Source of the DNA: Streptomyces sp. MZ04
GTDB taxonomy: Bacteria > Actinomycetota > Actinomycetes > Streptomycetales > Streptomycetaceae
Direction: 5' to 3'
Length of the DNA stretch: 64,000 nt
Assembly (NCBI RefSeq): GCF_004684775.1
Contig: NZ_SRIC01000001.1
Location: 1 to 64,000 of the forward strand
The number at the start of each line of letters is the position of its first letter. Position 1 is the first letter of the stretch. Made by a program: the position numbers and the translations under genes. The notes beneath the pieces were generated by a model. The model had not been told where the DNA came from and did no database searches. It worked only from the letters and a program-made list of their open reading frames with translations. Below, piece after piece: positions 1,578 to 38,022 of this stretch.

Positions 1578-1804
1578 GTGCGCGTCAGGCGAAGGCCGGG
1601 TGAACGGCTTTAGCGGGCCTGCGCGTTCATCGCGCGGCAACACACCCGGTCGAAGTCATGGTGCTGACGGGAAGGCCAGAACGGCTCGAGGTCGTGGTGA
1701 CGACCTGTCGCTGTGTTCCTGTGGCTGCCCATGCCCCCATTGAATCAGATGGCAGAGGGAAGGGGCAGCGGTGTCCCCCTGCAGAAGAGCGGTCACCCCC
1801 TGCC

Positions 1805-1841
1805 GAAGAGGGCGCCCACCGAATCGGCGGGCGCCCTCTTC
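1805..1841 (-). terminator. Hairpin terminator after glnII
   Basis: A 13-bp perfect stem, GAAGAGGGCGCCC (1805-1817) pairing with GGGCGCCCTCTTC (1829-1841), with an 11-nt loop. It begins 18 bp beyond the glnII stop. There is no clear U tract, which is common for Streptomyces terminators. Confidence 0.8.
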
Positions 1842-1859
1842 AGGAACGTACGGACGGGA

Positions 1860-2879
1860 TCAGACCTGACCGGCCTTCTCCAGCGCGGTGCAGCACGTGT
1901 CGACGAGCAGCCGGGTCACGACGTACGGGTCGACGTTGGCGTTCGGGCGGCGGTCCTCGATGTAGCCCTTCTGCTCCACCTCGACCTGCCACGGGATGCG
2001 GACCGAGGCGCCACGGTCGGAGACGCCGTACTTGTACTCGTCCCACGGGGCGGTCTCGTGCAGGCCGGTGAGGCGGTCGTCGATGCCGGCGCCGTAGTTC
2101 TTGACGTGGTCGAGCGGCTTCGAGCCCTCGCCGAGGGACTCGCAGGCGGTGATGATCGGGGCGTAGCCCTCGCGCATCGCCTTGGTGGAGAAGTTGGTGT
2201 GCGCACCGGCGCCGTTCCAGTCGCCCTTGACCGGCTTCGGGTCGAGGGTCGCGGAGACCTTGAAGTCCTCGGCGGTGCGGTAGAGCAGCCAGCGGGCGAT
2301 CCACAGCTGGTCCGAGACCTCGAGCGGGGCGAGCGGGCCGACCTGGAACTCCCACTGGCCGGGCATGACCTCGGCGTTGATGCCGGAGATGCCGAGACCG
2401 GCCTTCAGGCAGTTCTCCAGGTGCGCCTCGACGACGTCACGGCCGAAGATCTCGTCCGAGCCGACGCCGCAGTAGTAGCCGCCCTGCGCGGCGGGGAAGC
2501 CGCCGACCGGGAAGCCGAGCGGGCGGTCGCCCTCGAAGAAGGTGTACTCCTGCTCGATGCCGAAGATCGGCTCCTGCGAGGCGAACCGCTCCTCGAGCTC
2601 GGCGAGCGCGGCGCGGGTGTTGGACTCGTGCGGCGTCATGTCCGTGTTGAGGACCTCGCACAGCACGAGTACGTCGTCACCGCCGCGGATCGGGTCCGGG
2701 CAGGTGAAGACCGGCTTGAGCACGCGGTCGGAGGCGTGACCCTTGGCCTGGTTGGTGCTGGATCCGTCGAAGCCCCAGGTGGGAAGCTCGGCGCCGTCCG
2801 CGAGGATCTTCGTCTTCGAACGGAGCTTGGCGGTCGGCGCGGTGCCGTCGATCCAGATGTACTCGGCCTTGAAGGTCAC
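1860..2879 (-). CDS. glnII: Glutamine synthetase type II
   Basis: A 339-residue eukaryote-like GSII that condenses ammonium and glutamate to glutamine using ATP, in the cytosol. Recognisable motifs are the N-terminal WGFDGSST (Mg/substrate loop), FGIEQEYTFF with the metal-binding glutamates, NAEVMPGQWEFQVGP, the ATP/ammonium loop KGDWNGAGAHTNFSTK, and DRGASVRIP. Length fits the GSII class and is much shorter than GlnA. GTG at 2879 is preceded by an AAGGATG ribosome site. An upstream GlnR-type operator (2968-3005) predicts nitrogen control. Together with glnA at 20.3-21.7 kb the window carries both Streptomyces glutamine synthetases. Confidence 0.97.
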   Translation of the reverse strand: MTFKAEYIWIDGTAPTAKLRSKTKILADGAELPTWGFDGSSTNQAKGHASDRVLKPVFTCPDPIRGGDDVLVLCEVLNTDMTPHESNTRAALAELEERFASQEPIFGIEQEYTFFEGDRPLGFPVGGFPAAQGGYYCGVGSDEIFGRDVVEAHLENCLKAGLGISGINAEVMPGQWEFQVGPLAPLEVSDQLWIARWLLYRTAEDFKVSATLDPKPVKGDWNGAGAHTNFSTKAMREGYAPIITACESLGEGSKPLDHVKNYGAGIDDRLTGLHETAPWDEYKYGVSDRGASVRIPWQVEVEQKGYIEDRRPNANVDPYVVTRLLVDTCCTALEKAGQV

Positions 2880-3979: not shown

Positions 3980-4054
3980 AGGGCCGGCGCGACAGCTGAA
4001 GGGCTAGCGGGACAGCTGAAGGGCTAGCGGGACAGCTGAAGGGCTAGCGGGACA
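3975..4054. repeat. 20-bp tandem array spanning two convergent stop codons
   Basis: Three exact units of gctgaagggctagcgggaca (3995-4014, 4015-4034, 4035-4054) follow one degenerate unit (3975-3994). The degenerate unit contains the stop TGA of the hydrolase (3977-3979); the last exact unit contains the stop and final codons of the oppositely oriented ArsC-like gene (stop 4044-4046). The array is therefore built from gene ends rather than inserted between them. Confidence 0.95.
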
Positions 4055-4412
4055 GCGCGTCCCGTACCGCCTCCTCCGTGCGCGCCACCACCGCCGTGCC
4101 GTCGTCGGCGGTGATGATCGGGCGCTGGATGAGCTTGGGGTGCCCGGCGAGTGCCTTGATCCAGCGGGCGCGGCCGGAGGCGTCGCGCGGCCAGGCCTCG
4201 CGGTCCTTCAGGTTCAGGTCCTTGGCGGCCTGCTCCTGGGTCCGTGTGATGTCCCAGGGCTCGAGGCCGAGACGTTCGAGTACGTCGCTGATCTCGGCCT
4301 CGGTGGGTACGTCGTCGAGGTAGCGGCGGACGGTGTAGTCGGCGCCCTCCGCATCCAGCAGGGTGAGCGCGCCGCGGCACTTCGAGCAGGCGGGATTGAT
4401 CCAGATCTCCAT
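4044..4412 (-). CDS. ArsC/Spx-family reductase
   Basis: A 122-residue thioredoxin-fold protein. The N-terminal CSKC motif (residues 9-12) gives an active-site cysteine pair, followed by RRYLDDVPTEAEI, and the C-terminal KLIQRPI holds the arginine and cis-proline typical of ArsC/YfgD/Spx proteins. Two cysteines in CxxC spacing suggest a glutaredoxin-like or generic thiol reductase rather than a specialised arsenate reductase. No arsenic genes are nearby. Start ATG 4412. Its last codons lie in a tandem repeat. Confidence 0.85.
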   Translation of the reverse strand: MEIWINPACSKCRGALTLLDAEGADYTVRRYLDDVPTEAEISDVLERLGLEPWDITRTQEQAAKDLNLKDREAWPRDASGRARWIKALAGHPKLIQRPIITADDGTAVVARTEEAVRDALSR

Positions 4413-7411: not shown

Positions 7412-8383
7412 ATGCCGACCACCGTCACCACCTTCACCCTCGGCGGCACCATCTCCGCCCAGCGCGGCGGGAGTTCACCCCGTCTCACCGGGGACGAGCT
7501 CCTGGCTCAGGTGTCGCCCGACGTCGCCGTGGAAGTCCACGACTTCCGCCGACTCCCCAGCTCCTCCCTCACCATCGAGGACATCACCGCCCTCGCGGCC
7601 CAGGTGGACGAGGCGACGGCGGCCGGTCACGGCGTCGTGGTCGTCCAGGGCACCGACACCCTGGAGGAGACCGCCTTCCTGCTCGACCTGACCTGCACGC
7701 CCCGCCCCCGCACCCCCATCGCCGTCACGGGCGCCATGCGCCGCCCGGACCTCCCCGGCGCCGACGGCCCCGCGAACCTCGCCGCGGCCATCGCCGTCGC
7801 CGCCGACCCGGCCTGCGCCGGCCTCGGCGTCCTCACCGTCCTGGCCGACGAGATCCACGCAGCACGCCACGTACGCAAGACGCACACCACATCCACCGCG
7901 ACGTTCGCGTCCCCCGGCGCGGGCCCCCTCGGCACGGTCGTCGAGGGCACACCCCGCATCCACCTCCGCCCGGCACGCCCCACCGTCGAACGCCCCCTCC
8001 GCCTCCGGACCCCCATCCGCGTAGCCCTCGTCACCCTCTCGATGGGCGACCGCGGTGAACTCCTCGAAGCCGTGGACGGGCGGTTCGACGGCCTGGTCGT
8101 CGCGGCCTTCGGCGCGGGCCACGTACCGACCTGGCTGGTCGAACCGCTGGCCGAGCTGACCACGCGTATCCCCGTGGTCCTCGCGTCCCGCACCGGCGCG
8201 GGCACGACTCTCAGCCAGACCTACCGGGGGCCCGGCTCCGAGTACGACCTGATCCGGCGCGGCCTCATCCCCGCGGGCCCGCTGGACGCCCCCAAGGCCA
8301 GGCTCTTCCTGCACGCCCTCATCGCGGACGGCGCCGACCGCACCCGGATCGCCGAGACCTTCGCGGCGCTCCGCGAGAGCTAG
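7412..8383 (+). CDS. L-asparaginase
   Basis: A 323-residue asparaginase converting L-asparagine to aspartate and ammonia. FTLGGTISAQ carries the first catalytic threonine, VVVQGTDTLEETAF the second threonine-aspartate pair, and VTGAMRRPDLPGADGPANL the usual substrate loop. No signal peptide is seen, suggesting a cytosolic enzyme. Its TAG stop overlaps that of the convergent phosphatase gene inside one CTAG (8380-8383). Nitrogen release fits the glutamine synthetase neighbourhood, but co-regulation is not shown. Confidence 0.92.
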   Translation: MPTTVTTFTLGGTISAQRGGSSPRLTGDELLAQVSPDVAVEVHDFRRLPSSSLTIEDITALAAQVDEATAAGHGVVVVQGTDTLEETAFLLDLTCTPRPRTPIAVTGAMRRPDLPGADGPANLAAAIAVAADPACAGLGVLTVLADEIHAARHVRKTHTTSTATFASPGAGPLGTVVEGTPRIHLRPARPTVERPLRLRTPIRVALVTLSMGDRGELLEAVDGRFDGLVVAAFGAGHVPTWLVEPLAELTTRIPVVLASRTGAGTTLSQTYRGPGSEYDLIRRGLIPAGPLDAPKARLFLHALIADGADRTRIAETFAALRES

Positions 8384-33066: not shown

Positions 33067-33163
33067 CGGCCCCCGAAGGACCGGCCCCCCGAAGGACCGG
33101 CCCGGCGTGCGGTCTCCACGCGCGCGTAGGAGCGTGAAGACGTACCCCGGAAGGAGCGAACCG

Positions 33164-34264
33164 ATGATCAGGGCCGCGGCCAGTCGTCGGGACCGAGACG
33201 AGCCGAGCAGGCTTCGCGAAGCGCCGCGGCCCCGCTGGGTGCGCGGGTCTCCGCCGCTGCTCCTGGTCGTGATCTGCGTGATCCAGCTGGTCACCCCGGA
33301 GGCGGTCGACCTCAGCTTCCTGCTCGCGGCCGTCCCGCCGATGGCGGCGATGTCGTACGGCGCGTCCGCCACGGCCCTCTTCGGCGGCACCGTGATCATC
33401 CTGCTCTCCCTGCCGGGCTTCGGTCTCGGCCGCCCCGGAGACAGCGATCTGCTGACCGTCACTTTCGTGGCGCTGCTCAGCATCGTGTTCGCCTTTGTGC
33501 GCAGCCGGCGCGACGCCCAGCTCGTGACCGTCCGCACCGTCGCGGAGGCCGCCCAGTTCGCCGTCCTGCCGCCGCTGCCGGAACGCGTGGGCCCGGTGCG
33601 CTGCGCGGGCCTCTACCGTGCGGCACAGGGCGGGACCCTGGTGGGCGGCGATCTCTTCGACGTACGCAAGGGGCCGTGCGGTGTGCGGGCGCTGGTCGGC
33701 GATGTACAGGGGCACGGGCTCGCGGCCGTGGGGACGGTCGCCTCGCTGCTCGGCGCCTTCCGGGAGGCGGTGCTCGACCAGCCCGACCTGGAGGGGGTGG
33801 CCGGACGGCTCGACCGCCGTCTCGTGATCGACTCCGCGCAGGCCGAACACGCCGAACTCTTCGCCACCGCCGTGCTCCTGGAGTTCCGCGACGACGCCGC
33901 GGAGGTGCGGCTCGTCTCCTGTGGTCACCCGCCGCCGCTGCTGCTGCGCGGCGGCACCGTGGAGGAGCTCGATGTGACCCCGGGACCCCCGCTGGGCCTG
34001 GGCATCGCCGGTGTCGCGCCGCCCGAGGAAGTGAGCGTGGCGCTGAAACCCGGCGACCGGCTCCTCGCGGTCACCGACGGGGTGACCGAGGCGCGGGACG
34101 CGTCCGGCGCCTTCTATCCGCTGGCCGAGCGCCTCTCGACGTTCCCCGTCGAGGTGTGGGACCACCCGGCGGCGCTGACGTCCGCGGTCTGGCGGGACCT
34201 CGTACGGTTCTCCGGCGGGGTCGGGGACGACGTGGCGCTGCTGGCGTTCGCGGTGGAGGTCTAG
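33164..34264 (+). CDS. Membrane-linked PP2C/SpoIIE-type phosphatase
   Basis: A 366-residue protein. Residues ~28-105 contain about three hydrophobic helices; the rest is a SpoIIE/PPM phosphatase domain with GGDLFDV, VGDVQGHGLAA, VSCGHPPPLLL and VTDGVTEARD, carrying the metal-binding aspartates. AAGGAG (33151-33156) fixes ATG 33164. Such proteins dephosphorylate anti-sigma-factor antagonists. No partner gene is adjacent. Its TAG stop lies in the left CTAG of the MITE-like element. Confidence 0.92.
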   Translation: MIRAAASRRDRDEPSRLREAPRPRWVRGSPPLLLVVICVIQLVTPEAVDLSFLLAAVPPMAAMSYGASATALFGGTVIILLSLPGFGLGRPGDSDLLTVTFVALLSIVFAFVRSRRDAQLVTVRTVAEAAQFAVLPPLPERVGPVRCAGLYRAAQGGTLVGGDLFDVRKGPCGVRALVGDVQGHGLAAVGTVASLLGAFREAVLDQPDLEGVAGRLDRRLVIDSAQAEHAELFATAVLLEFRDDAAEVRLVSCGHPPPLLLRGGTVEELDVTPGPPLGLGIAGVAPPEEVSVALKPGDRLLAVTDGVTEARDASGAFYPLAERLSTFPVEVWDHPAALTSAVWRDLVRFSGGVGDDVALLAFAVEV

Positions 34265-34490
34265 GGCCTGTCCGATGGGTCCTGCCGGGGTCGCGACCCC
34301 TGGCACGCGCTCCCCCAAGCTCTCGGCTTCGCTCGAGCAGGGAGGTGCCCCCTCCGGCGTTGTCGTCGGTTGCCGACGCTCCGCGTTGCCGCCCTCCTCC
34401 GCCTTGCAGCCGCACGCACCAGGGCCCGCTCGGCCCTGATCAATCGGCACCCGGCGCGAAGACCGGCCTGACCCACCGGACAGGCCCTAG
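34261..34490. mobile_element. MITE-like element with terminal inverted repeats and CTAG flanks
   Basis: A 230-bp non-coding segment starts CTAGGGCCTGTCCGATGGGT (34261-34280) and ends with the inverted copy (34470-34490), 20 of 21 positions matching. The outermost CTAG on each side looks like a target duplication. Both flanking genes use these CTAGs as stop codons (34262-34264 plus, 34487-34489 minus). No transposase frame is present. The interior includes a 44-bp core (34309-34352) repeated inside aceE. Confidence 0.8.
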
Positions 34491-35149
34491 GCCCCCCGGC
34501 TCTTAGGGGCGGCGAGCAGCCGCAGGCCGCCCGTCAGCTCCCGCAGGCAGTGCACCGCGAGGGCGGCGGGGGAGCCGGGGCCCTCGGCCGGCGCGTCCGT
34601 GGCGGCCCAGGTCTCCAGGGCCAGGCGGACGGCATCCGTGGCGGCGGCCGCCGCCAGGCGTACGTCCAGTGGGTCGGCGTCGTCCCCGGCGAGCCGGGCG
34701 AGGACGGGGACCAGTTGCTCTTCCGACTCCTGGTTCACGCGGTACCAGACGGCACGCAGCGCCGGATCGTCCTGCGCGGCGCGCAGCAGGCCGCGCGTCC
34801 ACTCCAGGGACTCGACCGCGCGGTCGTCCGCCGCGGTGAGCACGTCAGCGATGGACCGCTCCAGGGCCGTCGACACCCCGGCGGCCGGATCGAGCGCGGC
34901 CAGGTGCGTACGCCACCGGGCGCCGCCGCCCGCGAGGAGCGGGCCGACCGCGTCCTGCTTGTTGCGGAAGTACCGGTAGAAGGTGCGCAGCGCCACCCCG
35001 GCCCGGCCCGCGATCTCCTCGGCCGTGGTGCCGTCCGGGCCGCGCTCGGCGAAGAGCTCGGCGGCGGCGCGGGCGATGTCGAGCTGCGTGGCCGCTTTGC
35101 GGCGCTCGGTCAGCGACGGTTGCGATGGCTGCGTCGGTTGGGTGCTCAC
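34487..35149 (-). CDS. TetR-family repressor
   Basis: A 220-residue regulator. The N-terminal DNA-binding domain is ARAAAELFAERGPDGTTAEEIAGRAGVALRTFYRYFRNKQ, as expected. GTG 35149. It is divergent from two SDR genes and an imperfect palindrome lies between them, so it likely represses that operon and itself. Its stop codon sits in the right CTAG of the MITE-like element. Confidence 0.92.
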   Translation of the reverse strand: MSTQPTQPSQPSLTERRKAATQLDIARAAAELFAERGPDGTTAEEIAGRAGVALRTFYRYFRNKQDAVGPLLAGGGARWRTHLAALDPAAGVSTALERSIADVLTAADDRAVESLEWTRGLLRAAQDDPALRAVWYRVNQESEEQLVPVLARLAGDDADPLDVRLAAAAATDAVRLALETWAATDAPAEGPGSPAALAVHCLRELTGGLRLLAAPKSRGA

Positions 35150-37080: not shown

Positions 37081-38022
37081 ATGCGTGTCTTCCGCGGTAT
37101 ACCGATATCCGTGAGGCGCGTGCCGTCTTCGGTGCGCGCCGCGGGGGCCCGAGCGATAGCGGACGGCCGGCCGGCGGCCCGAGCGGCCCGTGTCGCCTTG
37201 TGCTGTGTGCCCGGGGCCGCGGCCGTGTCGCTGCTGCTGATGTGCGCGGTGTCCGTGGGGCCGGGGACATCGGGGGCGGTGGCGCGGGCCCGCGGACCGG
37301 TGGAGTTCGGCGGGGTCACCGGGGCGGCGGTCGGCGTGACCGGGCGGGCCGCCCTGATGCCGGCGGCCGCGACGCGGGTACGGCGGCCCGCCGGGTATCC
37401 GGCGGCGCGGCCCCCCGTGGTGCTCCGCGCCGACTGGCTGGCCGACGGGGTGAAGGATCCGCCGCCCGCCCGGTACGCCGACCGGGTCGACGCGGTCTTC
37501 GTGCACCACACGGACTCGCCGAACGGCTACGACTGCGCGGATGTCCCGCGCATCATCCGCTATCTGTACCAGGGGCAGGCGGAGGGCAGGCAGTGGGACG
37601 ACATCGGTTACAACTTCCTGGTCGACCGGTGCGGGACCATCTACGAGGGGAGGGCGGGCGGAATCGACAAGGCCGTGGTGGGGGCGCACGCGCAGGGCTT
37701 CAACCGGGGCTCGGTGGGGATCGCGGCGATCGGGACGTTCACGGAGGGGGTGCCGGTTCCGAAGGCCATGACGGATGCCGTGGCGGCGCTGGCGGCGTGG
37801 AAGCTCGGGCTCTCGGGCATCGACCCGCGGTCGACGGTGCGGCTGGTCTCCACGAACAGCCTCAGCAAATACCGGGCGGGCACCAGCGGGCAGTTCCGGG
37901 CGATCTCCGGGCACAACGACGGCTACTTCACCTACTGCCCGGGTGCGGCGCTGACGGCCGCGCTCCCCGCGATCAGGGAGACGGCGGCGAGGCTGCAGAG
38001 CCGCGAGCCCCGCAAGGGCTAG
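37081..38022 (+). CDS. Secreted PGRP-type N-acetylmuramoyl-L-alanine amidase
   Basis: A 313-residue exported protein. A long basic N-terminus precedes a hydrophobic segment (VALCCVPGAAAVSLLLMCAVSV). The PGRP/amidase_2 domain starts at VVLRADWLAD; zinc ligands are likely His in VFVHHTDSPN and His in ISGHNDG near the C-terminus with the Cys of YFTYCPG nearby. GIAAIGTF and VVGAHAQGFNRG are typical. ATG 37081. Predicted to cleave peptide stems from peptidoglycan. TAG stop shares CTAG with the convergent gene. Confidence 0.9.
   Translation: MRVFRGIPISVRRVPSSVRAAGARAIADGRPAARAARVALCCVPGAAAVSLLLMCAVSVGPGTSGAVARARGPVEFGGVTGAAVGVTGRAALMPAAATRVRRPAGYPAARPPVVLRADWLADGVKDPPPARYADRVDAVFVHHTDSPNGYDCADVPRIIRYLYQGQAEGRQWDDIGYNFLVDRCGTIYEGRAGGIDKAVVGAHAQGFNRGSVGIAAIGTFTEGVPVPKAMTDAVAALAAWKLGLSGIDPRSTVRLVSTNSLSKYRAGTSGQFRAISGHNDGYFTYCPGAALTAALPAIRETAARLQSREPRKG

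Follow-up and report, generated by a model that had tools for sequence, protein, structure and literature searches.

In Rhodococcus equi, the IS481-family transposon TnRErm46 has been described to insert into the tetranucleotide CTAG with preservation of stop codons (PMC6794481). Within the IS5 family, ISMysh01 (IS5 group) of Mycobacterium shottsii is flanked by 4-bp CTAG direct repeats (PMC9241763), and IS5 of E. coli by 4-bp repeats of the C(A/T)A(G/A) type (PMC11677980). Insertion sequences (ISs) of the IS427 group of the same family have mostly 2-bp direct repeats in Paracoccus (PMC3281130).

Here, a 230-bp element at 34261-34490 of a 64-kb Streptomyces window (the whole stretch of DNA that was analysed) was compared with these systems. 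The family to which it belongs is a MITE of known kind; the family itself is new and has a sharp stop-codon distribution. Very probably, an IS5-type MITE was moved in trans into a CTAG shared by two convergent stop codons, both stops were kept, and copies of the family were retained. Neither CTAG-flanked or IS5-type MITEs of Streptomyces, nor this MITE family, nor a comparable stop-codon statistic was found in the open-access literature, outside which most subscription journals lie.

Structure of the element and its flanking genes

The window was scanned for inverted pairs of 21 bp whose arms lie within 400 bp of each other and differ at no more than one position. The segment 34261-34490 was the sole pair with distant arms, all others being tight hairpins of approximately 45–50 bp. 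Its 21-bp ends including CTAG, CTAGGGCCTGTCCGATGGGTC (34261-34281) and the reverse complement of CTAGGGCCTGTCCGGTGGGTC (34470-34490), differ by one mismatch, and the sequence bears out the 230-bp segment with CTAG flanks that the initial annotation had proposed. The left CTAG (34261-34264) is followed by the left terminal inverted repeat GGCCTGTCCGATGGGTC (34265-34281, plus strand), which is also found in IS5-family ISs of other Streptomyces. The right terminal inverted repeat GGCCTGTCCGGTGGGTC (34470-34486, minus strand), with one mismatch to the left one, is followed by the right CTAG (34487-34490). At 34308-34359 (element positions 48-99), the long form of the MITE includes a dispersed palindromic repeat (CTCCCCCAAGCTCTCGGCTTCGCTCGAGCAGG...), which also has stand-alone matches at numerous positions in the own genome, i.e. 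the genome that contains the window, and in its sister G320. No strand was assigned to this repeat, to either CTAG or to the element as a whole. The element (34261-34490) has no coding capacity; open reading frames (ORFs) crossing it are mechanical readings, and no gene of its own was called. A search of the element against Rfam gave no match.

A gene for a SpoIIE-domain phosphatase (33239-34264, plus strand; Pfam PF07228, E 2e-45) ends in the left CTAG; its start is uncertain, the ORF opening at 33107. A TetR-family regulator gene (34487-35149, minus strand; PF00440, E 6e-15) ends in the right CTAG. ORF ends and Pfam matches agree with the earlier assignment of the left CTAG to the phosphatase TAG and of the right CTAG to the TetR TAG, and the intact convergent 4-bp CTAG overlaps listed with it at 8380-8383 and 38019-38022 are real. 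Viral contigs were searched with the TetR protein and contained no relatives. Elsewhere in the window, at 3996-4055, a 20-bp unit gacagctgaagggctagcgg forms approximately three tandem repeats with CTAG in each, the third CTAG being a called gene stop.

Copies in the own genome and empty sites in a sister genome

The own genome (9.1 Mb draft, 630 contigs) contains 24 complete copies of 81–237 bp, plus fragments. CTAG was present on both sides of 20 copies and on one side of the other four, which have a variant of 1-2 bases on the other side (CCAG, CCAG, CTGG and CTGA). This flanking is far beyond chance. When the ends were searched with CTAG left out of the pattern, CTAG still stood at nearly all listed own-genome ends, and the expectation that copies elsewhere also carry CTAG flanks was confirmed. 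The copies differ chiefly by internal deletions of varying extent, with a mean pairwise divergence of 4.3%. Single ends only were found at C608, C80 and C611, and no transposase-bearing element was seen beside the C608 end. Short and non-coding, with terminal inverted repeats and many dispersed copies, the element has the features of a MITE. Exact ends were present in 9 of 199 sampled genomes of the genus and were most abundant in the own genome; almost all named records that share these ends come from Streptomyces.

Other Streptomyces carry 30-58 bp hairpins that consist of nothing but the two ends and are flanked by CTAG on at least one side (L096, L098, L103, L105, L161 and others), and one such minimal hairpin, of 30 bp, is present in the own genome (C196:788-817). 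A full-length relative of the MITE, 67% identical, is located on the Streptomyces plasmid NZ_CP109366.1 (L383:1501-1749); a hypothetical gene (1746-1970, minus strand) has its annotated stop at the right CTAG of this relative. Two contig ends, the right end of C98 (L003) and the left end of C414 (L008), share a flank beside oppositely oriented MITE copies, and the L003 flanks are on different contigs in G320. This points either to an assembly fault or to rearrangement through the repeat.

Empty sites were sought in relatives. For the window locus, a search of 198 genomes of the genus yielded nothing but distant junctions that differ in length; the sister genome G320 was found only via the concatenated empty sites of several copies. 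A search of G320 for the MITE yielded no copy, only matches to the repeat at positions 48-99, which occurs alone in at least 30 places there. Identity between G320 and the own genome is approximately 87–97% at most aligned flanks and 95% at the window locus. Here, the joined flanks of 804 bp are 94.7% identical and unchanged in length, and the junction GGAGGTCTAGGCCCCC contains a single CTAG. Phosphatase and TetR proteins end at the identical residue in G320, and both protein tails match. Collapse of the element to one CTAG, which according to the initial annotation leaves a 4-bp overlapping convergent stop, is seen in G320 as the empty site itself. Because G320 lacks the copy and has one CTAG serving both stops, the window locus is shown to have received its insertion in a CTAG without change to either protein. 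The locus is a clean natural insertion in which the target site coincides with a stop codon and neither protein is altered, and its empty site has been preserved in a sister species.

Further single-CTAG empty sites were present in G320 at five loci, L004, L010 (where a C run is one C shorter), L011, L019 and L023; together with the window locus, they provide the target-site duplication and the empty sites in relatives that are expected of a MITE. At nine loci (L001, L002, L004, L010, L011, L019, L020, L023 and L024) the gene whose stop is at the CTAG in the own genome has its stop at the aligned position in G320. In two relatives that are more distant, the gene pair lacks the element and its stops are separated by approximately 7 or 62 bp.

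Related insertion sequences and target duplication

In other Streptomyces, matching ends lie approximately 0.8-1.7 kb apart and flank a transposase with DUF4096 and DDE_Tnp_1, which matches the NCBI IS5-family model NF033580 at 5e-80. Of these loci, L142 comes closest, with 22-23 nt (CTAG included) in agreement with one of the MITE ends. The ends of the MITE are common to ISs encoding an IS5-family transposase, and the full IS with the same ends that the initial annotation proposed to look for exists in other Streptomyces.

An intact partner IS with matching ends was not found in the own genome (draft, 630 contigs), where IS5-type genes are distant only, none of them has these ends close by, and no match was obtained at E 1e-70. 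The partner may have been lost, may be located on an unassembled molecule or may have diverged further than the search covered. A MITE does not need such a partner within its own genome. Judging from sequence, the MITE was probably mobilised in trans by an IS5-type transposase. In the proposed mechanism, a non-autonomous DNA transposon with 17-18 bp ends matching those of Streptomyces IS5-family ISs would be inserted, by a transposase supplied in trans, into the CTAG of a 4-bp convergent stop overlap. The duplication would comprise either all of CTAG or its central TA only, leaving CTAG on each side, and each gene would keep its TAG stop and its exact C-terminus.

On a CTAG target, duplication of TA by an element ending in G...C and duplication of CTAG give an identical product. 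The quartets beside 28 related ISs were compared. CTAG/CTAG in 13 of them is uninformative on duplication length. Five fit TA only (TTAG/CTAA in two, CTAG/CTAA in two, TTAG/CTAG in one) and one (CTAA/CTAA) fits 4 bp only, while three (CTAA/CTAG) fit neither length without mutation and the remainder are degenerate. These quartets lean, without being decisive, towards a 2-bp duplication (TA) over a 4-bp one (CTAG). With a TA duplication, the final G of the phosphatase TAG would come from the element. The initial annotation had postulated insertion into CTAG with 4-bp duplication that leaves the proteins unchanged. The insertion and the unchanged proteins stand with the G320 empty site; the 4-bp duplication is weakened, a 2-bp duplication of TA being possible.

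Alternatively, the element might be a palindromic repeat, REP-like or of another kind, that an IS5-type transposase does not move. It does contain the dispersed palindromic repeat at 34308-34359, and relatives carry the minimal CTAG-ended hairpins of 30-58 bp; the empty Rfam search speaks against such a repeat. This origin, which is most improbable, was rejected because the empty sites are precise with a single CTAG, the flanks are duplicated and full-length ISs have these ends too.

Copies at stop codons and comparison with known systems

Genes were called with a simple codon-usage caller trained on 797 kb of the own genome, and the 156 CTAGs outside the family within these 797 kb served as background. 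Of these, 37 were at a gene stop (4 of them double convergent), 32 inside genes and 87 intergenic, 38 of the latter between divergent genes. About a quarter of the CTAGs in this high-GC genome are gene stops, which gives a CTAG-targeting element a built-in safe harbour. TAG stops were the location of 20 of the 24 MITE copies compared with 37/156 (24%) ordinary CTAGs (p ~3e-8). The caller itself gave 21/24; one copy, L006 (G000:C7:6703-6932), was taken out by hand, its called stop being due to a frameshift in a broken gene. No MITE site was located between divergent genes, and inside genes there was none by the caller and L006 by manual correction. This sole clear within-gene copy is inside an aldo/keto reductase gene that is frameshifted relative to the sister; insertion can therefore occur outside stops as well. 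Copies in other Streptomyces were at stops in 19 of 31 cases, against 39/156 (p=2e-4).

Double convergent stops accounted for 3/24 copies and 4/156 background CTAGs (p=0.05). Among 120 convergent pairs in the sample, 6 overlap by 4 bp, 4 of these at CTAG. The suggestion that convergent CTAG overlaps are natural targets is thereby weakened: only three copies are found there, and most are at the stop of a single gene.

Related full-length ISs, taken from other genomes and in some cases from plasmids, were at stops in 8/28 cases, which is the background rate. The difference between MITE copies, mostly at stops, and these ISs makes the question of targeting or retention testable. Since the ISs show no stop excess, the excess among MITE copies suggests retention of harmless insertions more than targeting. 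The excess would then arise mainly through selection keeping such insertions, in addition to CTAG targeting, and insertions in gene interiors and promoter regions would be lost. Alternatively, the transposase itself may prefer CTAGs at gene ends, through a longer motif, DNA structure or the ending of transcription, so that copies arrive at stops. The 20/24 copies at stops are compatible with such a preference, and the excess persists when only permissive CTAGs (non-genic and non-divergent) are compared (20/23 vs 37/81, p=3e-4). However, it is not significant in convergent intergenic regions alone (12/15 vs 13/23, p=0.18), an extended target motif looked for around MITE sites was not evident, and the stop enrichment is absent from the related ISs. 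Targeting of gene ends is rather unlikely, retention being preferred.

Retention could also have a functional cause. On each strand, the RNA fold is stronger than in shuffled sequences (z -4.7 and -7.3), and copies lie directly behind stops. In that case the folded element would terminate transcription, on one strand or on both, and protect the neighbouring genes, and copies might be kept for this effect. However, the inverted ends and the internal palindromic repeat would fold anyway, the window copy retains its stem mismatch, internal parts are freely deleted among copies, and the sister manages without the element. Such a benefit appears improbable, and an equally doubtful reading is that the MITE persists at gene ends in particular because its hairpin is a mobile two-way terminator. 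On that reading, a CTAG-targeting transposon would land on stops, leave the protein unchanged and insulate neighbouring or convergent genes. Most likely the element has no function beyond being carried.

CTAG insertions that keep a gene stop are already known from TnRErm46, as described in the available sections of its account (PMC6794481). Like the MITE, TnRErm46 has a CTAG target and leaves the gene stop in place. It differs in being autonomous and 6.9 kb long, in carrying a resistance gene and NCTAGN repeats, and in having unrelated ends and a transposase of another family; a convergent double-stop case and a genome-wide stop statistic are not given in those sections (PMC6794481). ISMysh01 and E. 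coli IS5 are, unlike the MITE, autonomous ISs, and what they share with it is the type of target repeat (PMC9241763, PMC11677980). The IS427-group ISs of Paracoccus share with the Streptomyces relatives the IS5 family and the 2-bp repeats suggested by the quartets of some relatives; they are approximately 0.85 kb long with mostly two overlapping ORFs, whereas the Streptomyces relatives have a single ORF (PMC3281130). The Streptomyces IS5-family ISs themselves (NF033580; for example L142, L101, L086 and L407) have the same 17-18 bp ends beside CTAG as the MITE, and differ from it in their length of approximately 0.8-1.7 kb, their coding capacity, their unshared internal sequence and their lack of enrichment at stops.
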